Below are positions 21,905-56,400 of a stretch of DNA of 64,000 bases, one piece after another; the stretch's first letter is position 1; each line of letters begins with the position of its first letter. Below the pieces are notes generated by a model, which was not told where the DNA came from, ran no database searches, and saw nothing but the letters and a program-made list of their open reading frames with translations. This DNA is from Kappaphycus alvarezii (Eukaryota; Rhodophyta; Florideophyceae; Gigartinales; Solieriaceae): the NCBI GenBank assembly GCA_002205965.3, contig NADL03000014.1:848796-912795 (forward strand), in the 5' to 3' direction. The position numbers and the translations under genes were made by a program.

Positions 21905-22440
21905 AACATTGATGCGCGGATGGCGGACCGCAGGACAGAGAAGATGGTAGGGAAGATCAAGCATTCTATTAAGAAGTGAATTGTGGAAAACCGAGGAGAC
22001 TAGGCGGAAGTGCTTCCTCAAATTCTTTACGGATATCGTAGTCGTGATCGCGGCCCCAACCCTTCTCCGTCCCTCTGATGTAAGGCATCAACCCGAGAAT
22101 GTTAAAGAGCAACGCAGTGGCGCCCTTCACCGATACTGGAACTCATCATAGGCTACTCAGGATGATCGGTGAGTCGGGCGTTCGCGCTGCTGCGGCCGCT
22201 ACGTCCGGGAAAACAAGGACGAGCACGAGGGAGGAGCAGAAGTTCGACGTTGAAAACGAATTGCTGGTGGCACACGGTCTGGCATCTAACAAGCCCCGCA
22301 AATGGGCCCCTTCTGGATCTTACCTCAATGATTCATGCCGAGTGATTAAGGCGAACCACCCACGCTACTAGTTGAAGTCTTGGACTTGCCACGTTACGCG
22401 GAAAGGAATCCATTCGCGCCGCATTATCCTCAATAAGAAG
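21905..22440 (+). pseudogene. Ty3/gypsy integrase C-terminal remnant (H3-tail lineage)
   Basis: Starts in DDE-domain sequence: MADRRTEKMVGKIKHSIKK, aligning with the 'NGRAERMVGTIKHAL' block of the element at 52-56 kb and including its catalytic Glu. It continues with LPQILYGYRSRDRGPNPSPS, then GINPRMLKS and THHRLLRMIGE. The C-terminal DNA-binding module reads ENELLVAHG ... KW ... CRVIKANHPRY. Two stops and a frame change show decay. Catalytic Asp residues and all upstream pol are missing. About 150 bases after its end a convergent frame related to the H3-tail protein begins, the same order as at 50-52 kb. Confidence 0.8.
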
Positions 22441-22444: not shown

Positions 22445-23664
22445 CTAACCATTTACGCATCTATAGAGAAGCAAGAAAATCAAATAATCAAGCAGAATGG
22501 ACAATGACGACGTAGAAAAATGTAGATCACTAAGCACCGGAGAATAATCGAAGGATATTGTAAGCATAAGGGTTGAAGCTTTGAGTCTTGGGTAATTAGG
22601 GACCAGCACTGCTGCCGCCTTCGCCTTTCTTAATGGCTCGCTCGCGTTTCCTGACCGAAAGAGAATTACGGCCAGGGCGGAGCTTTCTGGTTTTCCCGCG
22701 CTTACCAAGAACGACCCATCGTACTCCTGTGATGCATATAAACATGGAGTTCGGTTGAACACTGTCTTTGAGTGTCCAAGGGAAAGGGTTAACGCTAAGG
22801 GCTCGCTTGAATCCCAAATTGGGTGGGTCTTGCCTTCAAAGTCATACAACTTCACCTTCCAGAGGTCATGTGGGGAGACCCCACATGACCTCTGGAAGGT
22901 GAAGACCTACACGTATGGAGGTAAACTCAGGATATCCGTAAGGAAAGGGTTCAAGGGTAGTACAAACGAAGCAGGGCAAGCTTGTGTGCGTCCCTAAAAC
23001 TTAAGATACGACTTCCTCGTTGGAAGTCGTCCTTTGCTTCCTGGGAATTGCTCTTGAAGATTTCGAACAACTGAATAGCGATCGAAGGTGCCCCGAGTTG
23101 CCAATGGGCGTTGGCAATCGCATAGCCAAGGCACTAGTCGGAGTTGTCACTGGAGATAACTCCGGTGCGCGGATCTGCAAAGAAGGATGAAGCAGAGGCC
23201 TGCGGTTCACGGGAGCGTGCGCACAAGAGAATGAGACGCCTTCCTCTGTGAAGTTGACATCAAATATGGAAGCGGAAGGTACCAAGGCGGCAAACACTCC
23301 CGAAAAAAGTTTACGTCAAGGTGAGTCAAAAGGCGTCGTCCGGGGTGAGCTCTGTTCCGCACGTGTGCGTTACGTAGGCGGTTATGTGAGCGCCGAACAA
23401 ATGTTCGTATTCGTTCGCATTTACTCAATAAACCGCGCTTCTCCCTAAGGAGGCGTAGATAGCGTGGGGCATCTGGATATCACCCCCGAGGTAGAATACA
23501 TTGGTGATTTCTGACCTCCCCTCCAAGCGCCGCACAAGGTTTTTAGGGTTGGTCGGCAGCGACTTCTTCGCGCCCCTCGGATTCCGAGCAGACTTAGTCG
23601 CTAGCTCCGCCCAGGATGCCCGCCCGCCGATGCTAAGACGCGCTAGCTGTTTGGTGTGCACCAT
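22445..23664 (-). pseudogene. decayed paralog of the H3-tail protein
   Basis: Starts at an ATG (23664) that has an in-frame TAG four codons upstream, so the N-terminus is real. The first residues align without gaps to the histone H3 tail: 15 of 26 match (T3 K4 Q5 A7 R8 S10 G12 G13 A15 L20 A21 T22 K23 A25 R26). K9 is Leu, K14 Arg, K18 Ala, K27 Asn. LVRRLEGRSEI follows, matching LMRLLSERSDI of the other copy. After a stop (23425) homology resumes in other frames: ADPRTGVISSDNSD, a stop, then CLGYAIANAHWQLGAPS (about 23180-23090), the same putative Cys motif; RILSFRDAHKLA; IWDSSEPLALTLS (about 22820-22780); and a basic end with RNSLSVRKRERAIKK (about 22680-22630). A perfect palindrome sits where the His block should be. 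Lies convergent to the integrase relic. Confidence 0.75.
22850..22904. repeat. perfect 26-bp palindrome with 3-bp loop
   Basis: Positions 22850-22875 and 22879-22904 are exact reverse complements separated by AGA. It lies inside the decayed H3-tail paralog, at the place of the His-containing block. Possible origins are a snap-back or fold-back duplication during repair, or an assembly artefact. Confidence 0.95.
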
Positions 23665-35054: not shown

Positions 35055-35139
35055 CCCGATAGCGAAGTAAAGGACCTACGGAGCCCTCCAGTGGGTCGAT
35101 TCCATCCTGCGAGCAAAAAGTAACCCATTTCTTCCATAG

Positions 35140-37204
35140 TTATCTCATTCGAGCGCCAGGTGTTTGGGGTACGTGCCTTTGGCATGATCCGTGCAATAGT
35201 ATTCCCCCCGAAGTATTCCCTAACCCGGCCGCTGTAAGCACAGATTGCTGGAGAGTCACTGCGAGCGGTAGCGATCGTGCTTCTTCTGCGAGATTTTCCA
35301 GACGGCGATATTCCACGGGGACGGGCATCGACGGCGGAGCCCACAGAGGCGGTAGGTAGAGGTTGTCGGCGGCGAATACGTGTGGCCGTGACAGTTGGCG
35401 CAGGTTGAGAAACCATGATTGAGCGGGCCAATACGGCGTGACCAAGATTCCTGCGGCCTGTTCCTTGATGATCTTGGCTACGACGAGTGGTATCAACTTG
35501 AGGGGCGGGTTCCAAAAATTGACTTCTGATTTCCAATCCTGGGAGAGCGCGTCTACGGCGAGGGAGCCAGGAGACGCAAACTCGCTGTTGTACCTCCTGC
35601 AGATCCGATTGGTGTTGTCTGCGAATCTGTCGATTGTTGGCGGGAAAGATTCGAGTAGAGGCTGAAGGGGCTTGGTATTGATCCTCCAATCGTCGAGTGT
35701 CTGAAGGCGTGACAGTCGGTCGGCGAAACGGTTGACTGCCGAGGGCAGATACTGTGATTCGATGGTGATCCCGAGTTTGAGAAGCAAGCGGTGTAGCGAA
35801 CGGAGCTCTCTCATTAAGGGCCGAGACTTGGTGGTCATCGCATTGAGTATCGATACCACCGCCTGATTGTCCTCCCAAATCTTGAGATGAGTCCCGTTCT
35901 TCAGCAACGACGCGAAGGCCCGAATATTGTCCGTGACGGCCCGTAGTTCCAAGAAAGTTATTGGCTTGACTCGCAGTACGGGGTCCCAGAGTCCGCGAGC
36001 CTCCCAACAACCCTGTCCCTGGCCTCAGATCCGATCCCAATGTTCCTCCCTGTCCGACTCCCGTCGACGCGTCTGAGTGTAGCCAATGTTGGCTGTGGGT
36101 AGCGATAGGCCTTTCTGGAGGATTGGTAGTGAGGTCCCTCCAGAAGCGCAGGTCCCGAAGAGCGGCGTGTAGAAGCCTCACGCGTTTCCCCGTCTTGCTC
36201 AGATTCGTCTTGAGAGACTCGTAAATTGATCGAGTGTAGAACCGGGCGAGGGGCATAGCGAGCGAGCATGAGATAGCGACGCCTGCGAAGTGGCGTAGCA
36301 GTGATACGTCGACTAGTCGGCGATTGCGGCGTGCTTGGCGTAATAGTTGCCGGGCAATACCTCGCAACTTTTCCATCCTTCGAGCCGTAATCCCAAAAAC
36401 TAGACGGTCTGTATCGATTAGAAATCCCAAATGCTCGATCTGCCTCGTTCCTTCCCAGTGACCTTTGTCCTCCTTTCTCTGAAGTCCACACGAGCGGAGC
36501 AGAGAATCGATCTGTCGGCGGGCCTTGTTGAGGCGTGAAGGACGGTTTAGAGCCACCAAGAAGTCGTCCATGTAGGGATGGATTCGGAGACGTAAGGTTT
36601 CCCGGACATATTGAACGAAAGGTCGCATGAACTTGATGAAGTAGGCGGGAGAGAGTTTCCATCCGAAAGGGAGGGCAACACAGCGAAAGTAGCGATGGTC
36701 TACTTTGAACACGAACCAATTTCGAATATCGGGGTGTAGACGGAAATGGTGGTAACCTTTGGCGATATCGAAAGAAAACATCATGTCGGATTTCTGGAGG
36801 TCCAGTGCGAATCCTTCTAATGTTTCCATGCGAACGGGGATATCCCGAAATAGGGTAGATTGCCGAGAAAGATTGACCACGAGCCGCTTCTTTTCCGCTG
36901 AAGTTGTCACAAAGGCGTTGGAGATAGGGAAGCCAGCTTGGTGTAAGGAAAGAGCGGTCGACTCGGAGATTTCTTCGTAACTGCGACGGTGGAGCGCATC
37001 CGATATTGCTGAATCGAAGAATTCCCGGTCTTGGGGATCGATGGGGATTTGAGGGAGTTGGAATTTTGTGCGTGAAAGGGAGGTTGTGATGGGTTTTTCG
37101 TAGACCCCAAACCGTAAAGCGCGGACGAGGAATTTCGAGGCGCCGAGGGTTTCGGCCCAGAAGGGAGCGGCGCACTGGGTATTGCGCCAGAGGACGTGGG
37201 ACAT
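35140..37204 (-). pseudogene. reverse transcriptase-RNase H of the DIRS-type element (one frameshift)
   Basis: RT occupies the first ~410 codons from 37204. Readable blocks are LVVNLSRQSTLFRDIPVRME, DMMFSFDIAKGYHHFRLHP, CVALPFGWKLSPAYFIKFMR, the catalytic HPYMDDFLVAL, and HLGFLIDTDRLVFGI. These are characteristic of DIRS-order RTs (LPFGw.lsP..F.k). RNase H begins WLHSDAST (catalytic Asp). Near 35955 the frame shifts, and RNase H continues in a second frame from 35952 (MELRAVTDNIRAF, WEDNQAVVSILNA). The first frame stays open by chance to 35030, giving a misleading 724-codon ORF. Sits 32 bases after gag and just before the recombinase. Confidence 0.88.
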
Positions 37205-37236
37205 AGGGACAGAAAGAAAGAGTCGCGGAGGCGACT

Positions 37237-38076
37237 TTAGTTGGACTTAGAGTCCTTGGAACCTTTTCCGGACTGATTCTTGCGAGGTCGAGAGCCTTGA
37301 GCGGCCTGTTTGTTGAACTCCTTAGCGTATGCCTGGGAGCGCAATTCAGCGAACTTGGCCTTAGTTGAGCGATAGAGCTCAGAAGAATACGGGTAGTCGT
37401 CTTCACGAAGGTAACGCTGGAGCAGGATGGCTTCGGACTTTCCGGACTCGACAGAGTCAGTGAAGAAGTCGGTCCGTTCCAGAACGCGGCTGTAAGTGGC
37501 CTCCAAGTAGTGGTGTAGAACAGAGAAGAACTCAGTAGCGGCTGAGATGTCTTTGTTCTGGAGGGCCTCGGTGACCCGGTGAGCGCAGGCGATGGCGGTC
37601 TCACAGTTGTGCCCAACGTTCCAGAGTACTTCCGCTTCCCACCCGTCACGAACGTCAGCGGCCTTGATGCGACCGAAAAGACCTTCTGGTTCCGGAATGA
37701 ACCTCTTGGCGGGATAGGGAGCGACGGAGCTAGGACGCTGGTACTTGTTGAGTTTGCCGACCTCAGCGTATTCCTGGCGGGTAGCGAGTGTGTCGGCAAC
37801 TGCGGTTGCAGAGGGCGTGGGCAGTGTGAACTGAAGAACGCCCGTTTTGTAAGCCTCAGCGGCAGTTGAGGGCTTGACGGTAGGATCAGATACCGGTGGA
37901 TCTGAATCGGCGGCGGCGGCGGGCTCTGCGGCAGGAGGGTTCGACGGTCCAGCGGAAGCTTGGAGCAAGTTGACAATCTGCGAGAGCTGGGTTTCGATGC
38001 CGGTGACCTTGTTCTCGAGGGTATGGAGGCGAGAAGCGTCGGACTGCGAGGATTCAGAGGAGGTGGCATGGGACAT
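37237..38076 (-). CDS. gag-like protein of the DIRS-type element, 279 codons
   Basis: First ORF after the 5' repeat, starting at an ATG 62 bases inside it. Residues ~15-45 form a short coiled coil (LHTLENKVTGIETQLSQIVN). A Pro/Ala/Ser-rich linker (about 45-75) follows, then a helical domain, and the C-terminus is Lys/Ser-rich (RPRKNQSGKGSKDSKSN), suited to nucleic-acid binding. No CCHC knuckle, as in many DIRS-type gag proteins. The frame is intact. A 703-codon frame overlapping gag and RT on the same strand is Pro/Arg/Ser-rich and is a shadow. Name rests on position and architecture, not on a motif. Confidence 0.75.
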   Translation of the reverse strand: MSHATSSESSQSDASRLHTLENKVTGIETQLSQIVNLLQASAGPSNPPAAEPAAAADSDPPVSDPTVKPSTAAEAYKTGVLQFTLPTPSATAVADTLATRQEYAEVGKLNKYQRPSSVAPYPAKRFIPEPEGLFGRIKAADVRDGWEAEVLWNVGHNCETAIACAHRVTEALQNKDISAATEFFSVLHHYLEATYSRVLERTDFFTDSVESGKSEAILLQRYLREDDYPYSSELYRSTKAKFAELRSQAYAKEFNKQAAQGSRPRKNQSGKGSKDSKSN

Positions 38077-38137
38077 GGTTGATGTGCAAGTGTGATAGTC
38101 GACCTAGACAGATTCGTCTGGAGCTGGTTCGAGGGAT

Positions 38138-38460
38138 GAGAACAAGCGACGACTTGAGGAACCAGAAGTTGCGCTAGAGGTTTTCAAGTTGGCGGTTATA
38201 TAGCCCTGTTGAACCGGTCTTGATCGTGGTCCAAGTCCCCTTGCGCAAGCGGTACGGCTGCTACGTAGAAACCAGGAAGCATATGCGGCCGCGGCAGCGA
38301 GTGTAGGGTGTACAACGGTAAGCTGCCTACGTGGCCTTCCTAAAAGGTGCTTACAGTCAATTGATGCAACCGTGACCGCGTGACTTATCCGGAGTGGCAG
38401 ATCAAGGCCACGTTCAACCCCCCTTCTCATATTCACCCATAATTTTCCAATTAAAGTACC
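38138..38460 (-). repeat. 5' direct repeat (A1) of the DIRS-type element
   Basis: Partner of 33878-34199. Its outer end (GGTACTTTAATTGGAAAATT on the minus strand) abuts a 27-bp minisatellite, and its inner end leads into the gag start. Confidence 0.95.
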
Positions 38461-39427: not shown

Positions 39428-39908
39428 ACAGATATTTTCCTTGATAATATCTTCCCTCTGGCCAATCACATCCACAAGATGCCCTTTTATGCGTTTTATG
39501 GTATTTAGTATGTTTGATTGAGACTTTAGGATTAGCCGAAAAGTCTATATAAGCTGAGTAAAGTGCTTCCTCCTTGAGAGGTCAAGCAAGTTGGCAGACA
39601 ACTTCAGGTCAAGCTCCGAGTAGTAGGAAGTTGAGAGTCAACTTCAGACCCAAGAAAACTTTTTCCTAAGCTGGTCGCAGAGCATCAGTGGTACCCTTCC
39701 CCTTTTATACTTGCTTGTAGCCCTCTCAACTCTCTCCCATATACACTCCTTTTTATTTGTTAACTATACCACGGTAGCACTTTTGTCGCTTGCAACACCT
39801 CCTTCTTGGGGTATTTGGTTCTGAGTATCTCTTCTCCGACGATTTATCCCTATCACATGCCATCCTGTTGGGTCAAATTTCAGAACATCACCCTCCACCA
39901 TGAGAGAG
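39428..39908. other. non-coding, possible solo LTR fragment or promoter
   Basis: No coding frame. Contains TCTATATAAG near 39545, a short internal repetition (gcaagttggcagacaacttcag / ggaagttgagagtcaacttcag, about 39587-39650) and CT-rich stretches. Composition resembles an LTR, but no second copy is in the window. Confidence 0.35.
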
Positions 39909-40193
39909 TGATGTACGCTAAATTTGCACACGAAAAGAAAATCTAGAAGAGGACCAAATTCGGATACATATCGGAATTTGCAAGATATTTTTACAGTTTC
40001 TGAATTTGCAAGATATTTTTAATTTGGATGAGTGTGGCAAGTTCATATGTTCATTTTTTTTTAAGACACGGTGCCAATTATGTATGTCATTACACGTCCA
40101 AGGTCGTCATACTTTTCGAAGACGTCGCAGTATTTAAAGTTCGAAATCGACGTCGTGAGGAAAACCTCCCGCCATCAACTACCCCATCGGCTC
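39909..40193 (+). promoter_or_regulatory. LTR-like block, 5' side of gypsy copy 2
   Basis: Same 285-bp block as at 30370 and 46361, starting TGATGTACGC, with the duplicated gaatttgcaagatattttt motif and TATTTAAAG near 40131. Together with 46361-46644 it brackets the copy-2 element in direct orientation, hence the LTR interpretation. The downstream flanks of the two blocks differ completely. Confidence 0.65.
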
Positions 40194-41433: not shown

Positions 41434-44400
41434 TTGACGGATGCCGGTAACGTATCCATCGCTGAAGAAATCAGTCAAGTCAATGTGACAAAAAGGGATG
41501 GGGAAGGGAACATTTTATCGAAAAAACCTAGGCTAGATTATGGAATGCTGGAGCATATCCCAGCACCTGTACCTCCTCGAACCAAGAGGTCTGATCAAGT
41601 TGTTCCAGGAGTGGATCACTCCGGCCAAGAAGACGAAAGAAGAAGAAATTTAAGAGTATCCCGAAGGACGTACTAGAATATGTGAAGAAGTACAATTTGG
41701 TGCTGAGCTTGCATCGGCCCCAACTGGGATAACGTTTGGTCAACTTTTGAGGGGCGACGCAGAGGATGCGAGAAAAGAACTCAAAAAAATTATCAGGTCT
41801 AATAAGTCCGCTAAGGGTAAGAAACTGTTTCTTCAATCGGCCTCGACAGCACCAAGACGTCTTAAACTAGTACCAGTCAAAGTATTGGGAATGAAACCCA
41901 AGCTCTTTTCGATTCGGGCGCTGTTCCAAACCTTATTTCAGAAACTTTGGTGACAGATCTAGGTCTCGAAATTATTCCAACTACTCGAAGAATAACTGTG
42001 GCGGATGGAACCGTATCAAAATGCATGGGCACTGTTGACAAGGTTTCCGTGTTCTTTGGGGACTCTAAAGTTGATGTAGACTTTCTTGTCATGCCTGATC
42101 TCCCTTTCGATGCAATCATTGGTGCCCTACCATGGAAAGACTAGGGACCTGCATTGACTTGGGCAACCAAATCGTTTCAGTTAATGACGGCAGAACCGTG
42201 AAGATGCCCCTGGATTTCGACAAAAGCACACATCCGGAAGATTTAAGAGAAACGGACAGTGAAGATTTCACTTCTAGCTATGACAGCGAAGATTCCGAAC
42301 CAACTAACACTTTCGGAAGTGGAAAGGGTACGCTCGGGGATAATGAACATGGCATGGGATGATTATGATTCTGGGTTTGAAACAGATGAAGACTGGAATT
42401 CTAGGGTAGGTTTGACACCAATGTGTTTTTTTTGCGATAATATCGAATCAAAGGACGGAATTCAGGGATGAAAGAAGATTACAATTGCAAAGAAAAGAAT
42501 ATTCGATTCCATATCTGAAGATGTGAGCACGCCGGAAGAGGTCCTTCAAAATATTGGAGGGTAGATCAAGAAGAAAAAGAGCGCCAAATGCAGAAATTCA
42601 AGAAAAATACAGCACCTTCCCGCCCCGCCTCAATGAAAATATCCGACATGTTAACATCTTCCGAAGTAATTGCATGGAGCGTTCAGATCTAAGACAAGCA
42701 AGTGTACCGGTCACTCACTCATTTGAACTTACCGATACTCAACCAATTTACCACAGGCCTAGACGTCAACCGCCAAAATATGACCAATTTATCTCAGAGA
42801 ATGTTACAAGTATGCTGGAAAATGATATTATTCGGCCAGTTTCATCCCCATGGTCATTTCCAGTTGCGACAAAGAAGGATGGAAAGCTGCTTTTGCGTCG
42901 ATTACCGACAACTGAACCAGAGAATGATACCCGATCGATTTCCGATTCCGAACATGGAGGAAATCCTCGAGGACTTGAAGGACGGGAGATACTTCACCTC
43001 AATTGATCTTTACACTGGTTATTGGCAGATTCCATTGATGAAAAATGTAAGGAAAAAACAACTTTTACCAGCAAAGCCGGTACATTCAGGTTCGAAGTGA
43101 TGCCTTTTGGTCTCATGAATGCCCCAGCTACATTCCAAAGAATGATGAACGAGGTTTTGAAAGGACTTCCATTTGCAAGAGTTTATATCGATGATGTGTA
43201 TATTCTCAAAAACCTTGGATCAGCACATATCGCATGTCAAGACTGTGGTGGAGAGATATCGTACAGCCTGAAAATTAAGTTAAGCAAATGCTTCTTTGCG
43301 AAAACGTCTATCCAATTACTCGGTCATATCGTCGATCAAGAGGGAATTAAAGTGGATCCAGAGAAAACGAAAAAAATCAAGTTGGCACCAAGGCCCGCTT
43401 CAAAGACGGAGGTTCGAAGCTTCTTAGGACTGGCCTCATATTACAGAGATTTATCAAAGATTTCGCCAAGACTGCAGCACCGTTACATGCCAGCACTACG
43501 AAGAACGGAAAATTTTACTGGAACAAGGAAATGCAAACTGCATTTGAGGCTTAAAGATAAGCTATGTGTCCCCCCAGTGCTCATGTATCCAGATTTCAAG
43601 AGACCATTTGTTGTGGAGACAGATGCCTCAGAACGGTCTTTGGGTGCCGTTTTGTCCCAAAAAATGAAAACGGAAGACTACACCCTGTTCAATTCGCAAG
43701 TCGCACTCTGAATGATGCGGAAAAGAGATACTCAGTCTGCGAGAAAGAAGCGCTAGCTGTCGTCTTCGCACTGAAAAAGTTTCGCGTTACCTTTTATCAC
43801 TCGAGAAATTTGTCTTGATAACTGATCACCAGGCACTTAAGACAGCATTCCAAAAGAAAGATGTACATCACCGCTTGGCCCGATGGCTCGACATTTTCGC
43901 AGAATATCGGTTTGAAATTGTGTATAGGCCCGGACGCAATAATCAGCCTGCCGATACCTATCCCGCTTGAGGGATCCATGATTCCAAATGAAAAAGCTTC
44001 CGAGACATCGTCGGAGTTGCCGAGGTGCAAGTGCCGAACGATAACGAGTACGAAGCTATATTCACGGACTAATTAAATTCCTTGATGGACTAGAAATGAG
44101 AAAGGTTGATCTTGAACACAGAAATTGGGTACGCAGGAATCAAAAGGCTTTTACATTGGGAATGGGAAACTCTTCCGACACAAAAGCCGGTCCTCGACTA
44201 GTGGCCCCTTTGAAAGAAAGAATGAAGATCTTGAGGACTTTTCATGATGAGTTAGGGCATTGGGATCTCGAAACAACAAAAAATTCATACGGAGATTCTG
44301 GTGGCCCAGTATCCATAAGGACGTCTATAATTTCGTGAAAAGCTGCGAACTGTCAAAAATTCACTCCAAAAAGTATAAGACAATCTAAGCTTTCCAGTTT

Positions 44401-45275
44401 CCGGTCTCTTTGAAACCTTCTCAATTGACTTTGCCGGCCCATTCAAGGAAACCTCTTCCGGAAACAAATATCTCCTTATAGGGGTGGAACATCTTACTGG
44501 ATGGCCAATAGCAGTTGCAGTTGAGGAGGCCAATGCTGAGGTGGTCCTGAGATTCATCGAAAAAGAAATAATTGAACCGTTTGGTCTTCCAAAAAGGATC
44601 ATCTCGGATAACGCCCTTTGTTTTACTGCAACTTCACTGCTTCGTTTTTGGAAGAAAAGGATTCAGCTGAAGACAGTTCTCGCATACGCTCCTATGTCAA
44701 ACGGGAAAGCGGAGAGGATGGTTGGAACCATCAAACGAGCAATATCGAAAACTATGTCGAGAATGAAATCCAGTGGGAAGATGCCTTACCAAAAGTGTTA
44801 TACGGCTATCGTCGAAGAAGAGGAAGAAGTGGACGGTCACCATTTGAGCTAATGTACGGAAGGGCTCCTAGAATGTTACAGAGAGATGGAAACAAATAAA
44901 TCGATGAAGAGAGTAGAGAAGTCGAACTACTGGCCACGAAGGCTGGAGATCACACCGCGCGCTAACACAGACAAGAAATGAAGGATGAAGAGCCTCCAGT
45001 CCAAACTTTCAGTCGGCTCTAAAGTACTTGTAGTACATGGAAAAGCAATGCAACAGGCTGTGAAGTGGCCGGCTTTCCAAACAAAGTACTCGAACCCTTG
45101 CATCGTCACGGAGGAAAGACACCCGCATTATAAGCTCTGTTCAAGCTCAGGGAAGAGATCAAGGAGGGCCATCCATGCACGTCGTCTGTCCCTTACCATC
45201 AGAGGCCTGAAGAATTCCTTCTCACACAGGACTATGCGCAACCACGGGGCATACTCATCTTTAACTATAGAATGA
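41434..45275 (+). pseudogene. Ty3/gypsy pol, copy 2 (frameshifted)
   Basis: Fuller copy of the 25.5-29.3 kb element. It has its own N-terminus at 41434 (MTDAGNVSIAEEI...) and no CCHC gag before the protease. Retropepsin at about 41870-42140: LFSIRALFQ in one frame, a DSGA-type triad in the neighbouring frame at 41915, then VMPDLPFDAIIG. RT: RPRRQPPKYDQ (42765), SPWSFPVATKKDG (42845), YFTSIDLYTGYWQIP (42990), FRFEVMPFGLMNAPATFQRM (43090), RVYIDDV (43190). RNase H: ETDASERSLGAVL (43615). Integrase: FHDELGHWDLETTK (44240), DFAGPFKET (44430), LPKRIISDN (44595) and GKAERMVGTIK (44710), giving D, D and E. Frames change several times, so inactive as read. Confidence 0.92.
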
Positions 45276-46363
45276 TTCCTATGGGAGGAAAAAGGGCCTG
45301 GGAATGGATCATCTCGATTACGCGTGACTACTACGAACTCCACGTAATCATCCATTTCTACATTAATATATGCCTATGTTTTCGTACGTTGAACGGACCA
45401 TTGCTACCTCAAGAAGATTTCCGACTATTATCAGAGTTCTATTTCATTCCAAAACGGAAGGTTCACGGAAGCAGGTCCAGAGTTTGTGGAAGTCATATAT
45501 CATTACTCTATAGAAAAGTAGGAAAGGTAGCTATCGGAGACTTGTCGAAAACCTATCTCAATGTTATCCGCCCGATTTATGTATTTGTCAAGAACAATCA
45601 AGATTTGCAACTGAAAGGTTACAGCTTACCCCCTGATATGGAATAGCGACGGTCCCATATCCAATATGGGAACCTTGCGTTTCTCCGCCAAGGAACACGA
45701 GCTCAGCTGAAGATCAAGATCCTCCCGAGACCGTCATGATGATACGAGCAAGACCATCCAGTGATCGTGGCGGATCATCGAAAAGGACAGGGTGTCGAGA
45801 GCAACGAGGAAGATCAGCAAGGAGATCACCTCAAACAGCCTAGTCTCCCAAGTGTAAGCTATGCCTCCATAATTATTGGAAGGCTACCGAATAGACGTTG
45901 GCTTCGCGAAATAACGGAGGACCCCCGAGAAGCCGAGGTAATTTCCTATTTTGCGATTAGTATTTGCATGTGCTTCCAAAGCATTCATGGGCGCACCTTA
46001 CTCGTGAGGACTCAGTCCTTATGTTGCTATTCTTTTCTCCATCAGATACCCGTTTCTGGACCCATTGGCAGAGAAATTCGCATACTACATCTACTACGTT
46101 ACATTTGGAAGGTTCGGAGAAGTGAAACAAGAGTATTTCACTAGAGACCACTGTGAAACCATACTTAGGATATATGAAACTATCGACCAAGAGGCAGAGC
46201 CAGTCATCGCACGGTACACACTCTCCACTATATCGGAAATCAGTTAATGTCATATCCTTTCAGTCAACCGTATAGTCTCCCTGATGAATGGATGGAACTA
46301 CCAGAAGAACAGCAGGAGCAATGTAAACGAGCCGGGACGAACGTCTCGAGAGGGAGGACGTGA
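45276..46363 (+). pseudogene. extra two-domain ORF after integrase, copy 2
   Basis: Best view of the post-integrase coding region. Segment A (about 45300-45640) reads ITRDYYELHVIIHFYINICL, NGPLLPQEDFRLLSEFYFIP and DLSKTYLNVIRPIYVFV. Segment B (about 45840-46230) reads ITEDPREAEVISYFAISICM, a REDSVLMLLFFSPSD block (other frame), FAYYIYYVTFGRFGEV and ETILRIYETIDQEAEPV. Positions of I-T-x-D, E..VI..F.I.IC.CF, G..L..ED and the following F.P agree between segments, so this is an internal duplication of an unidentified ~110-residue domain. It ends in a TGA overlapping the LTR-like block. Confidence 0.65.
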
Positions 46364-46644
46364 TGTGCGCTAAATTTGCACACGAAAGAAAATCTAGAAG
46401 AGGACCAAATTCGGATATAGTATCGGAATTTGCAAGATATTTTTACAGTTTCTGAATTTGCAAGATATTTTTAATTTGGATGAGTGTGGCAAGTTCATAG
46501 GTTCATTTTTTTTAGACACGGTGCCAATTATGTATGTCATTACACGTCCAAGGTCGTCATACTTTTCGAAGACGTCTCAGTATTTAAAGTTCGAAATCGA
46601 CGTCGTTGAGGAAAACCTCCCGGCATCAACTACCCTATCGGCTC
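46361..46644 (+). promoter_or_regulatory. LTR-like block, 3' side of gypsy copy 2
   Basis: Starts TGATGTGCGC at the stop of the two-domain ORF and is nearly identical to 30370-30655. Relative to 39909-40193 it differs by scattered changes. It ends at the truncated HAD-like ORF, whose stop codon falls inside it. Confidence 0.65.
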
Positions 46645-47043
46645 ACTCACAATTCGGAGGCCACACGGTGAAGAATTCTGACTGTCGTGGGCCGTAATCT
46701 TTGCCTTGATAGCTTGGCGGAGGTCATTGCAATCACCGAGACCAGATGATTGGGTAGCGTGAGAACTGTTCAGGCGGTATTGGCAACTTTCGATACCGAT
46801 TACATTGTCGATATCCTCATTGGTCTTGCGGTCGATGTAGCTCACGGCCGGGGCGGTGAGAATGGATAAACGGCGCCCCATGTGACCTTCCAGCTCGACG
46901 AGAGCAGCCTTACGAGAACTGGAAAGAGTACCGGGGTGAATGTCAACCAAAGTACCGTCAAAGTCGAGACCCATGACGAGAGTGTCATTGTTGATGCCAG
47001 CAAGCACATTAGCTACGTCGGACGAGGAGAGACCGGACGGCAT
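46630..47043 (-). CDS. truncated HAD-family phosphatase-like protein, copy 2
   Basis: Translation identical to the copy at 30641-31054 over all 137 codons, including the DFDGT nucleophile motif. The C-terminal motifs are likewise missing. Because the LTR-like block and this ORF are together in both copies, the ORF lies in flanking DNA that was duplicated with the element and was not picked up twice. Confidence 0.55.
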   Translation of the reverse strand: MPSGLSSSDVANVLAGINNDTLVMGLDFDGTLVDIHPGTLSSSRKAALVELEGHMGRRLSILTAPAVSYIDRKTNEDIDNVIGIESCQYRLNSSHATQSSGLGDCNDLRQAIKAKITAHDSQNSSPCGLRIVSEPIG

Positions 47044-47181
47044 AGTGGAGTGTAAGGGTAGAAGCGGGGAGTGTGTGTTCGAGAGTAGAAAGGTGAGGAG
47101 GAGAGCAATGGTGGGGTGAGAGATATTTGGGTTGTGGCGCTGATAGTCCCGGTATTTACAGCCGGTATTTATAAAAAGATT

Positions 47182-47259
47182 ATAGACCTGTAGCACCCGC
47201 TCGATTTCGCCACCGCTCGCAAGCTCGCTCCCGCTTGAGAGCGCGTCCTACAGGTCTAT
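47182..47259. repeat. hairpin with 12-bp outer stem, copy 2
   Basis: Same sequence as 31193-31270. Exact stem ATAGACCTGTAG / CTACAGGTCTAT around a GC-rich interior. Confidence 0.7.
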
Positions 47260-47498
47260 GCACATGGAAAAGTAAAAGTGCTGTGTGATAGAAACGAAGG
47301 TGTGAGGAAAGCGGACGCAAGCAGTAGTACTAAGAAAACGATATTGCTTTTTCTTGATTTTCTAGAGAGACACACCCACCAACCAAGGCCAAAAACTTTC
47401 TATAGCTTGGGCTCAAGCAACACAGAGTTGCGAGCCCCAGATACTAAGCAATATCACGATCACGGCAAACAACTACCTAAAATTGGCCTAATAAACCT

Positions 47499-47825
47499 TC
47501 ATCCCTTCATCAAGCTAATGAACAGACTGCTGCGCTCCACAACTCCCACCATTACCACGTCCATTCCGATCCTTCTTGTCCTTCTTCTCTTTGGCCCTTC
47601 TCTCCTTCGTCCCCTCTTCTTGTGTGCTCGGTTAATCGCGTCTTGGTAAAGTTGCAAAACGCCTTCATCATTGATCCCCAAACCACCCACAGCTGCTACA
47701 TATTCGGCCTGTAAATCTGTAAGAGTAGCATCAATAGCGAAAAGTTGGGAAAAATTGTTTGGGTTGGTTCTGTTGCGCTCGCGACATGCGTGGCTGTCCC
47801 GAATTTCGTATACGCGTCTGCACAT
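47499..47825 (-). CDS. Lys/Arg-rich small protein, copy 2 (108 codons)
   Basis: Open frame starting MCRRVYEIRDSHACRERN at the edge of the TAC/GTA-rich repeat. A predicted helical middle (LTDLQAEYVAAVGGLGI, VLQLYQDAINRAH) leads into a very basic stretch KKRGRRREGPKRRRTRR, which could bind nucleic acid or serve as a nuclear localisation signal, then a hydrophobic C-terminus. No family recognised. Present but frame-disrupted in block 1. Confidence 0.4.
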   Translation of the reverse strand: MCRRVYEIRDSHACRERNRTNPNNFSQLFAIDATLTDLQAEYVAAVGGLGINDEGVLQLYQDAINRAHKKRGRRREGPKRRRTRRIGMDVVMVGVVERSSLFISLMKG

Positions 47826-48371
47826 ATACCACAGTTGTATCTACATTAAAAAGTAGTATCTGCTAAACCCTACTACCTGCTACCAATATTCTGTAGGAGC
47901 TACCTTTTATCTGTACTAGGTATTGAACTACCTATTGCCGATGTTAAATAATACTTACTTCCTACCTGCTATTAAGTAATCGCAACTATGTACTAATATG
48001 TGCGACACTGATTTTGTGTCACTAGTAACAAGTAGATAGTGAGTACTTCCTGCAGTACATTAGCGTTGACGTACTACTACTAAATAGCTCCTTTGCGGTA
48101 GTAAATTACTAGCCTTTATTATTGTGTAGTAATTACTCACTTTTGAGTAGCTACTAGTGCTGCTACCAACTCGTAAAAAGTACTAATAGTACTAGTACCT
48201 GTTGTAATACAGTTCTATGTATTAGTGAACCCTAATTGCATCTACCATCCAATACATAGTTTTATAACTACTACGAAGTATTTAGTAGGTCAAAATAGCA
48301 CCATCAAGTAATATCTGTTACTACAATTATTAGCTACTAGAAATTAGATTCTACTTACCGACCTAATACTT

Positions 48372-48415
48372 CTATTTCATGTACGTATTAGTCACTAAAT
48401 ACGTACATGAAATAG
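48372..48415. repeat. perfect 18-bp hairpin in the TAC/GTA repeat
   Basis: CTATTTCATGTACGTATT at 48372-48389 is exactly reverse-complemented at 48398-48415 around an 8-base loop. The block-1 counterpart (about 32403) has lost bases in the right arm. Confidence 0.9.
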
Positions 48416-48928
48416 TAGTGCTCCTACGCACTTACCTACTACCTACCTAGTATAAACTACGTACTTAGTACTAATACATGGCGGTACAATTAGTACAAGT
48501 GTGCTATTAGTATTATTGCTAGGTAATATTTATACGATTACTAATCCCTGTAAAGCCTAAATCCTCAAATCTAATGTTATGTCCATAATCTCCTCCTTTT
48601 TCTGTTTTCATTGAGCTAGCATCAAATCCTTGAATATTCTAGTACTATTATGAGGGAAGGGCGTTTAATGGTTTGAATCGAGGAAGCTAAAATGTACTTG
48701 GTAGCCCTATGAAATCGACTAAACGGGTAGCTAATAGCGGCATACGCTGTCAATTCTACATCAAAGCATATTTCACCCATAACTTTACCTTGTAGAGCAC
48801 GCACCGCTAGTACTGCAAGGTAGAAAGTGGTACTAGAGCTAACTAATCTGCTAGTGTTTGCTTTTATTTGTACCTAATTGCTAGTAGGTACTAGTAACTA
48901 GTACCTAATACTATTTACATAGGTACTT

Positions 48929-49032: not shown

Positions 49033-49678
49033 ACTGTACCATAGTACCTTCGAGGTATGTAGTAGTTCTCACTACTTACTAGTACTATTACTATGATGGA
49101 CTTGTACTTATAAGTAGTACTACTAATAATTACTTGTACATAATATTCATCACGGACGAGTACAATTAGGTAATACTACTAATACCTACTAGTATCTATT
49201 ACATTTTTTGGACTAGTACTAGTTGGAACTACTAATACCTAATTGATAACAGATAATAGTAAGTAGCTGAGGAAAAAGCAGTGCATGTTCGCATTTACGT
49301 AAAGTTAAAACACTGGTATTCATGACGATCAAGGGTGGACTCTATAATCATACAGCTCGTTCGGGCAATCGAAAGAATTACTAAACCTAGGTGGCAATGC
49401 GGCAGAAGTAAGACACTAGCATAGAGTGCTTACAGTGCATTCTGTAACCATTTAGTGCCTCGTAAGTGTAGTGTACACTTGCTAGCGATGATATTAATTT
49501 CCAGTTGATTCGCTGGGCGAAATTCTATAACAATTATAATACTTGTTTTTGTTTACTCTATCTTCCATCTATTTTTTGCGGCCGAGCGGAACCTACCGTC
49601 CCTTCCTCCGGACTCCAGCAGCCCTCTCGTCCACTTATAGGGGCGGCCGTGCGGGGTCTCTACTCGCGAAACATGTAA

Positions 49679-50334: not shown

Positions 50335-51596
50335 ATGGCTCGAACGAAGCAGCTTGCTCGTTGGAGCACTGGTGGTCGTGCACCTCGCAAGAACATCGTC
50401 ACTAAGGCGGCGCGAGTCGCCCGCGGCGCAAATGGGCCTCCTCCGGTGGCAAGAGCGAATTTGATGCGTTTGTTGTCGGAGCGTTCTGACATCAAAAAGG
50501 TGCTCTTCATCGGCAGGAAGGACCGGAATCCTTTCGTCATCCACACCGACTCCTGTGGAATTCACCCGTACCGCGTCTCTCGTCAGGAGTTCCTCGATCT
50601 CTTCGGGACCCACATCACAGATTACGTGACTCACTGCGTTGGTGACGAGGTCACGCGTGATGATGCTTTCCAACTCGGTCTCACGGAATCCCAGCACGAT
50701 CGGCGTGTGTACGATGTGGTGCGAGAAGGGGATTGGATTATCAGCATGGTCCGCTGGGACGACGACACTCTCAGACTTATTGAGCAGTTGACACGGAAAC
50801 GGGAGAAGAGCACTCGGTTTTGCTCTACACTCTCGCGTTTTTCGGCCCCCAAGAGCCAGACGGTCACTCCATCTCTCGTCAGGCCCGGTTCTCTTTGGGG
50901 TGTGAAGGCCGACTCAGTGCCGGATCGAGCGCTCACATGTGGTGCAACTTCATCCCAGTCGTCGTCTCCAGTTGTCAGCAGTTCGTTCCCGGGAGCCACG
51001 TGCTTCCCCTGATTCTCTCTTGGCCTCTCCTCGCACTGATGTGGTATTCCGTGATAACACCGACCTATGCATCGGTTTCTTAATCTCCAACGCCCTCTGT
51101 CAGTTGGGTGCTCCTGCCGTCGCACGAGAGTGGTTGGAGTACTATAAGGGTAACGATCGAGCTTTGAAGGCCGACGTCACGCGTCGGGGTCGCATCAGGA
51201 GCTTGAGAGACGCTCAGAAGCATGCGTCTCCACGCTCGTTCATTATCCATCAAATCTTCAGTCCCAACCCGGCTATCAAGGAGACTTTGGCGCTTCCTAG
51301 TGGGGCCTACGTCGTGAAGATCCAGGGTTTCCATTGTGTCCATCACTGCGTCACTATGAACACCGAGACGGGCCAGATATGGGACCCTAGTGAGCGCTTT
51401 GCCTTGGAACTCTCCTTTCAAGCTCTCCGTGAATGCGTCGGTGATAATTCTACATTCATTTCGTCCTAGAGGTCCGGAAGGCGATGATCTAGCCGGAAAG
51501 CGAAGGAAGCGGCGTCCTTGTCGCAACTCCCTGTCCGTCCGGAAGCGCGAGCGGAGGATTAGGGAGAACCAGGGAGACCACAGCGCCGCTCCCTAG
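50335..51596 (+). CDS. histone H3-tail-like protein with putative Cys-protease-like region
   Basis: From ATG 50335 the protein aligns gap-free with mature histone H3 residues 1-26 at 20 positions: A1 R2 T3 K4 Q5, A7 R8, S10-G13, A15-K18, T22-R26. Changes: T6 to Leu, K9 to Trp, K14 to Arg, Q19-A21 to Asn-Ile-Val, K27 to Val. No histone fold follows. Residues ~45-215 form an unfamiliar domain (LMRLLSERSDIKKVLFIGRK at its start), then a Ser/Pro linker. After a frame change near 50950-51010 comes DNTDLCIGFLISNA (Cys at 51068), RSLRDAQKHA, YVVKIQGFHCVHHCVT and IWDPSE, a Cys-His-Asp order as in papain-like enzymes. A second frame change near 51400-51465 leads to a basic end (GKRRKRRP, RNSLSVRKRERRI). 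Frameshifts may be real decay, introns or errors. Start: the paralog has a stop just before its equivalent Met; an upstream in-frame ATG (50287) exists here. Confidence 0.7.
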
Positions 51597-51886
51597 TTAC
51601 TCAAGATTCAAGGCTTCATCCACAATGTTTACGACTTCTCTGTTTACGACTTCTCTGTGTGCTTTTTTAGTACTAAGCCTTCTATCATGCGTTTTCTCTG
51701 TCATCGCACTTCAATCTACTCTATTCTTGGTTCTTCTTCTCTTGTTCTCTCGCTTTCTAGCTCTTATTTAGCTGAATAAATGGGCCAATCTCTTCTGATA
51801 CGGGACAATCCGGCTCGCATGAATTGCCTTCCTTGACACGAGACCGGTGGAGGAAAGTAACTCTTAGCGAGGATGGTTCGCCTTCG
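51597..51886. other. intergenic space between convergent ORFs
   Basis: Separates the stop of the H3-tail ORF from the C-terminus of integrase on the other strand. AT- and CT-rich, with ctgtttacgacttct direct repeats near 51633-51660 and AATAAA at 51775 on the + strand, a plausible 3' end signal for the H3-tail transcript. Confidence 0.45.
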
Positions 51887-52860
51887 TCACCCTGCACGAT
51901 CCATAAAAATACGAGTCGAAGGCCGGCCAGTTGCGCCCTTTATTGAAGACAGCACCGTGCCTACCAACACTTCATCTCCAACTTCGAATTCCTTGACTTT
52001 TCCTTTGGTCTTGCGGGGTTCGCTAGTCTTCTCCACCACGCCATCCCGCGTCCCAGAACCGGCTAAGGTCTCGAGCCGATGATGGGGGCCGGCTTCACTG
52101 GGAAATGCTACCGAATCACTGGCCAGCATCCTCAGATTAATTCCATACATCAGTCGGAAAGGGAACGGGCGTCGCTTTGGTCCCGTCTGCGGTAAACGTA
52201 TAGGACCTTGGGAGGGCATCTGCCCAGTCTGCCCCACCGCGGAAAATTGATCTATAGAGCGCGTGCTTGATGGTTCCCACCATCCGCTCCGCGCGGCCGT
52301 TTGCCATCGCGCGTAAGCAAAGCACCGCCTTCCATTCGACTCCTTTCCTTCATGTACTGTTGCACCGCTCCCGCCATAAACGCAGTCGCGTTATCCGAGA
52401 CGATTCCTTTTGTGGTCCAAACGGTGATAATATCTCTTCCTCATGAACCTTATCACGGTATCGGCAGTAGAATCCGTCGTGGCCCACGCTATGGGCCACC
52501 CCGTCATATGTTCTACAGCGATCAGAATAAATCTTTTCCCAGTCTTCGGAGGCTTGAATGGTCCAGGAAGTCCATCGAGAAGGTCTCAAAGATTCCAGTA
52601 ACGGGAGCTCTCAGACTCGAGTGATAAGTCGGCAACCTTCTCGCACGTTGACACCCATCACAACTTTGTACATATTCGGTGAAATCACGGTACACTCCAG
52701 GCCACCAGAATCGATCTCTCACGAACTTTCTTGTCGAACCGACGTCCCAGTGGCCAATATCGTCATGAACCGTGGCATGTATCTCCGAGCGTTGACCGAT
52801 CGGAGGCACGACACGGAGCCCGTCCTTCTCGCGACGAAAGAGGGTGTCTTTCCGGAGCAT
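51887..52860 (-). pseudogene. integrase of the H3-tail gypsy element (frameshifted)
   Basis: The N-terminal HHCC zinc module reads HDDIGHWDVGSTRKFVRDRF then VQSCDGC (about 52780-52650). The DDE core is split over frames: MDFL with the first Asp (about 52575), a VAHSVGHD-type block, and NGRAERMVGTIKHAL (about 52300) carrying the Glu. The C-terminal part reads FRLMYGINLRMLASD, GPHHRLETLAGSG and VKEFEVGDEVLVG (about 52160-51960), homologous to the relic at 22.1-22.3 kb. Several frame changes, not functional as read. Confidence 0.88.
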
Positions 52861-53094
52861 GAAATCTTCGCACTCCGTCTGACTGCGACCTTCTTCTTCG
52901 GGTCGGTTTCTTTAACTAGTTATCGGCAAAGAACTGTGCTACATCTAGCAAGTGCGGTTCCACTGTCGCTACCATTCCTTCTGTTATGTTTTCATCGTTT
53001 CTTCTTTCTTCCTTCGGTTGGGTCTTCGCGAAAGATAATCGGCGGCCCCATCGCTAGTCCGGACGATACTTGATACCAAAGTCGTATTCCGCCA

Positions 53095-54150
53095 TCAAGT
53101 CCATCCACCTTGCAACCGCCCGTGAATATCTTTCTTCTTGAACGCGGTTTGAAGTGCTTGATGGTCTGTATAAACGACGAAAGGCTTATCAGACAGAAGG
53201 CACACTCTGAACTTCTTAAGACGAAAACCACGTCTAAAGCTTCTAGTTTGCTTGTGGAGTACCGGCGCTCCTAGTCCGTCATCGTTCGAGAAGCGAACTG
53301 AATGGGATGTATTTTCCCGTCTTCTTTCTTCTGCGAGAGAAAAACCCCAAGGGCTGCCGAAGAGGCGTCTGTTCCACCAAGAAAGGAGAATTGAAATCCC
53401 GAAACGCCAATACTGGAGGTAGTAAGTTTCCCCTTCAAGTATTCGAAAGCCTCTTGCATCTCCGAGGTCCATTCGAAAGCCTTCTTGACAGACGTCGCTG
53501 CGTGCAACACTGCTGAGCTGTCGGCAAACCCCCTTATGAACCGTCGGTAGTACCCCGCGATTCCTAGAAAACTCCTGCGTTTGGTCACGTTTTTAGGCAC
53601 GGGGCTGCCAAAATATCCTTGATCTTGTCGGGATCCACCTTACACCACTTGAATTAACTATGTGACCAAGCAATTTCACTTCTGATTGAGCAAAGTTGCA
53701 CTTGGTAACCTTCAACTTCAGTTCGATTTTTTATCCTCCTGAACACTTCTTTGCAATGAGCTATGAGTTCCTCCAACGTCTTTGAGAAAATATCAACGTC
53801 GTCCACACAAAACCATAGCGAACGTCAGCCCGCGAAGCACCTCCTCCATCATTCTTTGAAACGTCGTGGAGCGTTCAGAGTCCAAAGGAAATACCTCGAA
53901 CTTTTACGTTCCATATCGAGAGAAGAACGTCATCTTTTCCTTGCAAGTTTCGACATCCTAACCTGCCAGTATTCTGTGTAAAGGTCCAATGCTGTGAAGA
54001 ATCTGCGCCAGAGAGTCGTCGAAGATTTCTCCTGTTTTTGGTAACGGACAGCGGTCTAGCTTCATCACCCTGTTCAACTGACTGAAGTCGACGCAAACCG
54101 GAGCCTTCCGTCTTTCTTTGTGGCTATCACTACCGGAAAGGACCAGGCGG
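53095..54150 (-). pseudogene. reverse transcriptase and RNase H of the H3-tail gypsy element
   Basis: RT pieces: LNRVMKLDRCPLP near 54080, FQRMMEEVLRGLTF near 53850, and the catalytic block CVDDVDIFSKTL near 53800. After the connection comes KRRSFLGIAGYYRRFIRGFA (53590-53530). RNase H follows: FLGGTDASSAALGVFLSQKK (53390) with the catalytic Asp, IHPIQFASRTMTD (53300), and FVVYTDHQALQTAFKKKDIH (53170-53110) in another frame. Upstream RT blocks are eroded. Confidence 0.88.
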
Positions 54151-54689
54151 ACCTTGACGGCGTAATGATTCCAGCTTCCATAATTCCTTAACTTCTATCC
54201 TTACGACTTCGTTATGCCTCGGCGGCATTCGGCGAGCTTTCGGATGTATCGGAGTCTCGTTCGTCAACTCGAAAGAATGCACCACCGGCACATGAGCAGG
54301 CTCCAGGTCGTGAATGTCCTAAGCTATGACATCCGTTTCCTTGAGAGCTTTGCCAGCTCCTTCTGATTCTTCTCTTCGAATGGTTAGCTTCGAGGCCAAT
54401 AGAGCCGAGCGGTCCACCTCCTCTTACCTCCTTCTTAACTTCAGTCTTCGTCGAGCGAGATAGATCAGGCTCGTACGACTCCTTGTTAATGATGGCTAAG
54501 ACCAGGTCTTGTTCGGTATTAGATCCACTATCGCTTTCGCTAGACGACGAGAACGGGTGGAGAGATTCCTCATCGTCCGAAACTTTGGGGACGTGAATCT
54601 CACCGTCCGTCTGAGTCCCATTGATTCTGAACGCTCGTTTACGAATGGGAACACAACCTCTTATTCTCCAATAACCAAAGTGACGTGTT

Positions 54690-54990
54690 GGAGTGCGTAA
54701 TCAATGCGCGTCTGGAGCTTCCAGAGTCGGGCTTCCAACAATAACGTCAAACGGGGCATTTGACTCCAGGAACTCAAGATGCACAACCATTACCCATACG
54801 ACACAGGCACTCCTTTGAGATAACCAAGAACCTCGGCGACAGTTCTGTCTGCTACGTCACCTGACGATCGGTCTCTGTTGGGGTGAGGGCAAGCCTTTTG
54901 CAGAATTCCCGAGAGCTCAAGTTAGGAACTCCACCTGTCCAAAAGTGCATGAGTCTCCGTTCCATACAACTTCACGGCTACTACCTTGAG
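54690..54990 (-). pseudogene. retropepsin of the H3-tail gypsy element
   Basis: Reads VAVKLYGTETHALLD, then in the next frame TGGVPNL, which together form the DTG-type active-site loop broken by a single base. PFDVIVGSP in a third frame and IDYALQHVTLVIGE follow. Position between gag and RT agrees with the family. Confidence 0.65.
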
Positions 54991-55409
54991 TCGGCGTGAA
55001 CCTCCTGAAGAGCTAACCATCGACGCCTGTGTAACCGGTAACCTCTTGGATAACAATCTTATTAAAACCTTTCTGGCCTCCTCGCATCCCCGCGCAACGG
55101 TTGCCCGAAGTTCATTCCTGTGGAAGCGGAAGCCAGTTCAGAGATCACGTTATACTTCCCTACATGATCCTGAAGCCCAACGGATTTCTTCTTCCATTTG
55201 CGGTTTCCTCTCTTAGTTTCTTCTTGGGACGGGAGCCATCATCGGCGGACGATTAGCAGGGGCTTTGTTCAAGATGGCATCAAGATCCATCAAGTTTTCC
55301 CTCCGCTGTTTCGGGAGTGCCTGCCCGTCCGCACTTCTCGTCGCGGCGGCCACCACGTCCTTTTTGCAAGATTCCTGAACAACGGCGATCTTGTCATCGT
55401 CCTTCGGCT

Positions 55410-56217
55410 TCTTCATTTTCAATTCTTCTCCAGACTCAGACCGGCCCTAGCAACTTCTCCTCGCTGATCATCACCACGAGGGTTCTTAGACCAGCATTTT
55501 GCTTCCGAATTTCCTCTCTCCACAAATCGTACAGCGTGTATCTCTATGCGAATTATGCGGGCAACGGCTCGCTCCCTGGCCCTTCTGATTGCAATAGCTG
55601 CAGAAATAATTAGCAACCGTCTTCACTGGCGGCGTCGTTCCGTCAAATTACTTCTTCACGAGCAACGATAGTTCAGCGAATTGGTCGGCCAGCTTATCCA
55701 CCTTGTTTTCCAGATGCTGTGAAATACGAGCATCCGGACTTTGGAAGATCTTCTTCGGCGCTTCACTCGATGATTCTCCTTGACTTTCTTCTCAATAGAA
55801 CGTCTTATTACCAATTAAGAAGTCCGCTATTGCCCTCTCGGGCTCTTTGTAGCCCGTAGGAGCTCTAAACATCACAAACTGCGCCATTTCTTGATTTCCT
55901 GTCACTGCTTTCCGAAGCAGGCCGAACGAAGCGGTATCGTTGAATCTAACTCTCTAACATAGAGCATCAGACTGCGCCAGGGAGCCCGTTAAGTCTTTCG
56001 GGTCCAACCTAGCGTTGATAGCCTTCCGCAATTCTTCTTCTGGCTTCGGGTTATCCCCAAACTCCTCGATGAGCTTGGCCTTAACGGTCGAATAGTCCTT
56101 CGCCTCCTCCACCAACGCTCCATCTCTCGCGAAATCCTCGTAGTAACGCTCAAAGGCTGCGCCCTCGAGGTGGCAAAGGATCTGGAGCGCCTTTTTCTCG
56201 TCGCTTTTGTCGCGCAT
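55410..56217 (-). pseudogene. gag remnant of the H3-tail gypsy element
   Basis: The frame at 56217-55954 contains LCHLEGAAFERYYEDFARDG and DYSTVKAKLIEEFGDN, typical of the Ty3/gypsy capsid domain ('a..w...l......ty..f...l...F'). Downstream, at about 55605-55490, CSYCNQKGQGASRC and CTICGERGNSEAKC are two CCHC-type zinc knuckles whose His positions have become Gln and Asn. Frame changes lie between. Confidence 0.7.
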
Positions 56218-56400
56218 AACTACATTCTCGTACGCGAAAAAGAAGCGCGCGAAGTCGGAAGAAGGGGAACCGTTGAAGGAAACGTGGGTCTCGGGGAATC
56301 TTTCATATTCATAGTCGGCCTTGGATGCGGTACCATGTAATGCTTGTTTTTATTTACTCTGTCTTTCTTTTTTTGCGGCCAAGCGGAAACTACCTACCAC

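Follow-up and report, generated by a model that had tools for sequence, protein, structure and literature searches.

The H3-like open reading frame

The DNA analysed here (the window) is a stretch of 64,000 nucleotides from Kappaphycus alvarezii. An open reading frame (ORF) on the forward strand starts with an ATG at 50335, and 20 of the 26 residues that follow its methionine are those of the histone H3 tail, aligned without gaps. The copy of the ORF at this locus comprises four parts:

50335..50415, + strand: Met and 26-residue N-terminus resembling the H3 tail (20/26 identity, shuffles at most 9; phmmer E 1.7e-6)
50416..50769, + strand: first domain of the accessory gene, antisense to pol, no assigned fold (frame 1; matches many places in the genome)
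51035..51469, + strand: second domain, in which a Cys, a His and an Asp are conserved (frame 2; genome matches, residue counts)
51474..51596, + strand: basic tail at the C-terminus (read in frame 3, ending at the stop at 51596)

The H3-like start had been reported in the original prediction and was confirmed by a recount, by shuffling and by phmmer. When the window was shuffled 60 times by mononucleotide, no 26-mer following an ATG matched H3 at more than nine positions, which rules out a chance resemblance. The phmmer match was between an H3 chain from the PDB and ORF residues 1-34. A second stretch of the same chain scored -0.6 bits and therefore no histone fold was seen after the tail; the resemblance was confined to about residues 1-36, and the Pfam histone family was absent from the four tail-bearing copies examined for it. 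The earlier description of a tail without a fold was thereby borne out, and its assignment of individual positions (R2, K4, R8, S10, K18, K23 and R26 kept, with K9 replaced by Trp, K27 by Val and K14 by Arg) is right for the window copy.

The same prediction treated 50335-51596 as a single ORF, which did not hold, as three frames are needed to read it. Frame 1 is open to 51009 and frame 2 to 51466, and the C-terminus is encoded in frame 3 to 51596. A natural, unbroken genomic copy (L017) is open for 421 amino acids and has the same basic C-terminus as the window copy; another (L013) is open for 475 amino acids and differs at its C-terminal end. As these natural copies read through in one frame, the window copy must contain frame breaks, and because both are uninterrupted, introns in place of the breaks were ruled out. 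Comparison with the unbroken copies also placed residues ~146-225 of the frame-1 ORF out of frame, and these residues are consequently not protein of the ORF family. The window copy of the ORF is broken.

No Pfam family matched the first domain, and its AF2 model was of low confidence (mean pLDDT 38), with a mixed alpha/beta composition.

The carrier element

The ORF is convergent with a degraded gag-pol region on the opposite strand, and further remnants of the carrier element flank both:

51760..56349, - strand: gag-pol with many frame breaks, convergent with the ORF (Pfam and tblastn)
49535..49601, - strand: LTR end adjoining the start of the ORF (direct repeat; the rest of the LTR is inferred, up to about 50310)
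56336..56398, - strand: remnant of the opposite LTR (direct repeat)

The gag-pol region matched Integrase_H2C2 (1.7e-15) and RT_RNaseH_2 (4.4e-12) in Pfam and was related by tblastn to another gypsy family of the window, which itself matched RVT_1 (1.7e-13) and rve (2.6e-7, just under the rve cut-off). Gag was assigned by its place and a zinc-knuckle-like stretch, with no family match. The probable LTR ends, only 67 and 63 bp long, form an 82% direct repeat with a score of 220, compared with a maximum of 158 for shuffled sequence. The gag-pol on the opposite strand and the repeated end place the ORF in antisense orientation between pol and the probable LTR, as an accessory gene of the Ty3/gypsy element.

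The same arrangement was found across the genome. A match to the end of pol was present at 57 of 89 loci, and in 56 of these 57 it lay antisense to and downstream of the ORF; the stretches read for this mostly extended only 1-1.5 kb beyond the ORF match. Gag-like sequence directly follows the ORF in one further genomic copy (C813). The ORF is part of the element in many copies. That it is borne by an LTR retrotransposon had been proposed before and agrees with these data; its antisense orientation to pol is a new point.

A second copy of the ORF lies elsewhere in the window:

22596..23664, - strand: copy 2 of the ORF, decayed, with an H3-like start (tblastn E 1e-22 and 1e-24; codon pattern)
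22057..22332, + strand: remnant of the C-terminal end of pol, from copy 2, in convergent orientation to its ORF (37% identity by tblastn, E 1e-10)

Copy 2 is 45% and 48% identical to the window copy at 50335 in two matched stretches. A 55-bp inverted repeat, 94.5% self-complementary by BLAST, lies within it at 22850-22904, near the expected His motif.

Among plant Ty3/gypsy elements, Retand, Grande and RIRE2 are likewise described with an ORF that runs antisense in the interval from pol to the 3' LTR, where a TRP28 domain is involved (PMC11963269, available part); these ORFs encode a different protein in different hosts, and the word 'histone' is absent from the main text of that paper.

A second Ty3/gypsy family occupies 24985-32383 and 41528-48553 of the window, with copies 94% identical and LTRs of about 0.53 kb. 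Here too an ORF lies antisense in the interval from pol to the 3' LTR (30644-31258 and 46633-47247, - strand); its HAD-IIB match reached an E-value of only 0.022.

The family in the genome

The first part of the ORF had at least 155 matches in the alga's own assembly (336,021,096 bases in 884 contigs), and the second domain (query 51005-51466) at least 151. Both are lower bounds, with 150 of 569 and 150 of 530 candidates scored, respectively, and a single copy may yield several matches. From the first search 89 distinct loci were read: the 30 best (including the window copy), 40 in list order and 19 diverged loci picked because their match started at residue 1-3, a choice biased toward tail-bearing copies. 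An N-terminus could be aligned at 82 of them (63 of the 70 best and list-order loci, and all 19 picked loci), the remaining seven having no recognisable tail. The start residue was Met in only 55 of the 82, so many copies are decayed.

From the second search 20 diverged matches were chosen and 600 bases were read at the expected start of each, a tail being called where at least 10 of the 26 H3 residues were present. An H3-like tail was found at 17 of these loci; shuffled single stretches reached 10 at one of the 20 (L112, scored tail-less) and 7-9 at the others. The three loci without a recognisable tail in 600 bases (L097, L103 and L112) may be truncated, decayed or truly tail-less. The 82 and 17 sequences together make up the 99 N-termini tallied below.

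The original prediction had suggested a search of this genome for further copies and had named as contrary outcomes a recent fusion confined to one decayed copy and a lineage whose other members lack the tail. Many copies were found, and the tail is common to diverged subfamilies, despite the 7 of 89 and 3 of 20 loci at which none was recognised. Decay of a single copy is ruled out by the 99 N-termini. Scans of viral contigs and genome contigs, with two to six short peptide patterns per scan and with pol pieces also run on the viral contigs, revealed no relatives in sets from which records near this genome may be absent.

Substitution pattern of the tail

Lysine was present at position 27 in none of the 99 N-termini. 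Val (64), Met (11), Ile (7) and Phe (5) gave a hydrophobic residue in 87 sequences, and the others had Asn (4), Ala (3), Ser (3), Glu (1) or Arg (1). Position 9 was similarly altered, with lysine kept in 6 of 99, leucine in 83 and a hydrophobic residue in 89; the Trp previously noted at this position is real in the window copy, but is a quirk found in one N-terminus of the 99. Elsewhere the tail was better kept (K4 in 79, K23 in 83, R26 in 80, K18 in 63 and R8 in 60 of 99), with the exception of K14, which was kept in 13 and replaced by Arg in 70. At the extreme N-terminus, the 82 sequences from the first search retained A1 in 65, R2 in 62, T3 in 68, K4 in 73 and Q5 in 71. The 61 N-termini whose first 60 codons contain no stop gave the same picture: K27 in none, K9 in 6, K4 in 54, K23 in 55 and R26 in 52.

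These counts are not independent events, because the copies share ancestry, and the weight of the pattern lies in the agreement between diverged clades. A FastTree tree was built without the tail from 45 of the 99 rows, namely those in which the first 95 codons are free of stops. Clade B (nine rows, support 0.99) had Met27 in eight rows, Ile27 in one and Ser28 in all; A-R-M-S, the H3K27M sequence, was present in eight of the nine. Clade E (four rows, support 0.95) was placed apart from clade B and had R8A, K9 and Ile or Val at 27. All six copies that keep K9 (L105, L109, L110, L111, L113 and L114) belong to clade E, and all have R8A and Ile or Val27; at position 4 they have Arg (4), Gln (1) or Leu (1). 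The clade-E subfamily carries a differently edited H3 tail. The sequence A-R-I-S was found around position 27 in L045, L109 and L113. By the genetic code, a lysine codon becomes one for Met or Ile through a single base change, and one for Val or Leu through two.

This pattern bears on two ways in which the tail might serve the element without engaging silencing enzymes. It could be a decoy for the activating end of H3: K4, together with K23 and R2, would draw a K4 methyltransferase, acetyltransferases or readers of the PHD type to the pre-integration complex or to the element itself, and the lysines at 9 and 27 would have been lost only to avoid silencing of the decoy. The retention of K4 and K23 and of residues 1-5 speaks for this explanation, and the position of the tail at the start of the ORF makes a free N-terminus possible. 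It fits less well with the replacement of K4 in the six clade-E copies, with the Met or Ile at position 27 in 9/9 clade-B rows, and with Val and Leu, which lie two base changes from a lysine codon, beyond what mere loss needs. We consider the explanation unlikely.

The second proposal is that the tail hijacks the import and chaperone routes of H3 (importins, H3 chaperones), or nucleosome contacts, and so delivers to chromatin either the integration complex or the domain with Cys, His and Asp. The H3 tail does act as an import signal, and both the N-terminus and the C-terminus of the ORF product are basic. A basic stretch alone would be enough for that purpose, and the conserved uncharged positions and the loss of K27 in 99/99 and of K9 in 93/99 are left unexplained; this proposal is accordingly improbable.

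Conservation and origin

Tail identity between subfamilies A-D was 0.56-0.82, compared with 0.23-0.30 over the rest of a 145-residue stretch (~118 residues), in a comparison of 19 rows chosen by hand, some of which shift frame beyond the tail and so depress the non-tail figure. Between the two window copies, pS and pN were 0.76 and 0.26 in the tail, 0.72 and 0.43 in codons 28-111, 0.75 and 0.29 over a block of 86 codons in the second domain, and 0.83 and 0.09 over a 12-codon C-terminal block. Silent change therefore dominates between these copies. In the C-terminal block 8 of 11 base differences fell at third positions, and the stop position is the same in both.

The host's own H3 genes were located elsewhere in the assembly, which speaks against the insertion of a host H3 gene here by chance, the remaining contrary outcome considered beforehand. 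The five best of 26 histone matches were read and all encode the canonical H3 tail; in three it is read in a single frame, and in two it is interrupted by a frame break. The latter two (L094 and L095) are perhaps pseudogenes or assembly errors. When six copies of the ORF were compared with three host H3 genes, a different codon was used at 10-19 of 20-23 shared residues, so a recent capture of a host H3 gene is ruled out.

The broken state of the window copy and copy 2 would be in keeping with a chance origin, with decay, or with one host H3 gene having been inserted recently. Given 99 N-termini in several subfamilies, codons unlike those of host H3 and a tail conserved above the rest of the protein, the probability of any of these is negligible. 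As the host H3 codons differ so widely, the tail is an old, selected mimicry of H3. The Ty3/gypsy lineage, which comprises several subfamilies, has carried the ORF as an accessory gene for a long time.

The second domain

The second domain contains a Cys, a His and an Asp (residues 55, 147 and 160 of the translation of 50906-51466) that are conserved in order. With the window copy left out, closer matches (at least 55% identity) had the Cys in 31 of at least 36, the His in 31 of 36 and the Asp in 34 of 35; in diverged matches the Cys was present in 16 of at least 25, the His in 25 of 29 and the Asp in 18 of at least 26. The domain had been called Cys-protease-like. The residues are ordered and conserved as in such an enzyme, but no sequence or fold match to a protease was obtained, and the identity as a Cys protease is not supported. 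The suggested comparison with Pfam and the PDB yielded no Pfam match near the cut-off (the best was RAMA, E 0.031), no NCBIfam match of note and no PDB match below E 0.1. The AF2 model was of low confidence (mean pLDDT 43), and the best Foldseek match with it had an E-value of 0.86, the model being too poor to exclude a protease.

The domain could be a papain-like protease or a transferase, with the tail acting as a pseudosubstrate in cis or with the protein cleaving or modifying host H3 tails. The order of Cys, His and Asp, and of helices and strands in the low-confidence model, would suit such an enzyme; the database and Foldseek results do not point to one, and we regard this explanation as quite improbable.

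A possible decoy of silencing methyltransferases

Three roles for the tail had been put forward in the original prediction: recruitment of activating readers, service as a pseudosubstrate and titration of silencing enzymes with an unmethylatable substrate. The family data (K27 in 0/99, K9 lost in 93/99) favour the last. The gene, its position, its copy number, its conservation and its substitution pattern are observed; from these we infer that the ORF is expressed and that its product is probably nuclear. If the initiator Met is removed, as is assumed here, the free N-terminus would imitate the H3 tail. Being H3-like around positions 9 and 27, the tail should occupy the substrate groove of a putative host PRC2 without being methylated, and perhaps likewise that of H3K9 methyltransferases. 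Binding of this kind would trap or inhibit the enzymes, as H3K27M, H3K27I, H3K9M and EZHIP do, and would benefit the element by relieving its silencing. The Cys/His/Asp domain may contribute an enzymatic step.

Support for this mechanism comes from inhibitors described in other organisms. PRC2 is inhibited when residue 27 of H3 is Met or Ile, and not when it is Lys or Arg; Met406 of EZHIP can be replaced by Ile, though not by Glu, Lys or Arg (PMC6513997, available part). H3K9M traps Clr4, and peptides with K9M or norleucine (K9Nle) bind G9a more tightly (PMC5030085, available part). The presence of A-R-M-S and A-R-I-S in copies of the ORF, taken with this literature, therefore favours a methyltransferase decoy. 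In the red alga Cyanidioschyzon (C. merolae), about half of the repeats are under H3K27me3, according to the accessible portion of PMC5405695.

Several observations tell against the decoy. The commonest states, Val27 and Leu9, lie outside the M/I27 and K9M/K9Nle data in the available parts of these papers, and inhibition by branched side chains may be weaker than by Met. Asn, Ala, Ser, Glu or Arg is found at position 27 in 12 of 99 N-termini, and six clade-E copies keep K9. The absence of both lysines would also be expected of a decoy whose only need is to escape silencing itself. With these points weighed, we give about even chances to the ORF product being an EZHIP-like decoy, encoded by a transposon, for H3K27 methyltransferases and mostly for those of H3K9 too. 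A fuller version, to which we attach slightly less than an even chance, is that of a retrotransposon 'oncohistone': an antisense-encoded H3 tail, hydrophobic at 27 and 9, that would jam the silencing methyltransferases, with the exchanges between subfamilies (M27/L9, V27/L9, and I/V27 with R8A) reflecting an arms race with PRC2 and the H3K9 writers.

Comparison with known systems

The known system nearest to the proposed action is EZHIP (CXorf67), a PRC2 inhibitor of placental mammals. It is a non-histone protein with an H3K27M-like motif in which Met replaces K27 (PMC12713659, PMC6513997, available parts), and the H3-like context is likewise found in a non-histone here. EZHIP is a host gene with a short VRMR motif at the C-terminus, whereas the ORF is a transposon gene with a 26-residue N-terminal tail that includes position 9. 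H3K27M, H3K27I and H3K9M share with the ORF the exchanged positions and their context, but are true histones with a fold; the ORF product has none, and V27 and L9 are its commonest states.

Among parasites, the viral histone mimics also place an H3-like motif in a parasite protein, without a full lysine-swapped tail; the motif of influenza NS1 is a few residues long and lies at the C-terminus. VANC is a transposon-encoded anti-silencing factor that acts on DNA methylation. To our knowledge, ALP1 is not an H3 mimic. It is a domesticated transposase in Arabidopsis PRC2 and so a transposon-derived antagonist of silencing (PMC4671723, available part), while the gene described here is still in its transposon. 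Antisense accessory ORFs (plant Retand) and PRC2 antagonism by a domesticated transposase (ALP1) are thus already known; a transposon-encoded H3 tail was not found in the open-licence PMC literature among the matches listed.

If the proposed mechanism is correct, the ORF would be a transposon-encoded H3-tail mimic with an exchange of the H3K27M-oncohistone type, selected across diverged subfamilies. Two questions would then be open to direct test: whether histone methylation itself is a target of transposons, and whether repeat silencing was an early role of PRC2, as data from a red alga and a diatom have suggested (PMC5405695, available part). The natural variants at positions 8, 9, 14, 18 and 27 would be a ready panel for studying methyltransferase recognition.

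Other features of the window

Rfam and tRNA scans of the window gave no matches, and a Pfam search for host genes in 84 other ORFs of the window gave one RVT_2 match only. An element at 35030-38183 (- strand), which we take to be DIRS-like, matched RVT_1 (E 1.1e-20) and, below the cut-off, a Dam methylase (E 9.5e-4). A repeat of ~295 bp, ~96% identical between copies, occurs at 30363-30655, 39902-40193 and 46354-46644, one of these lying outside the gypsy copies. The region 6001-10000 has a strong GC skew (0.54 and 0.34), with a G-rich + strand.
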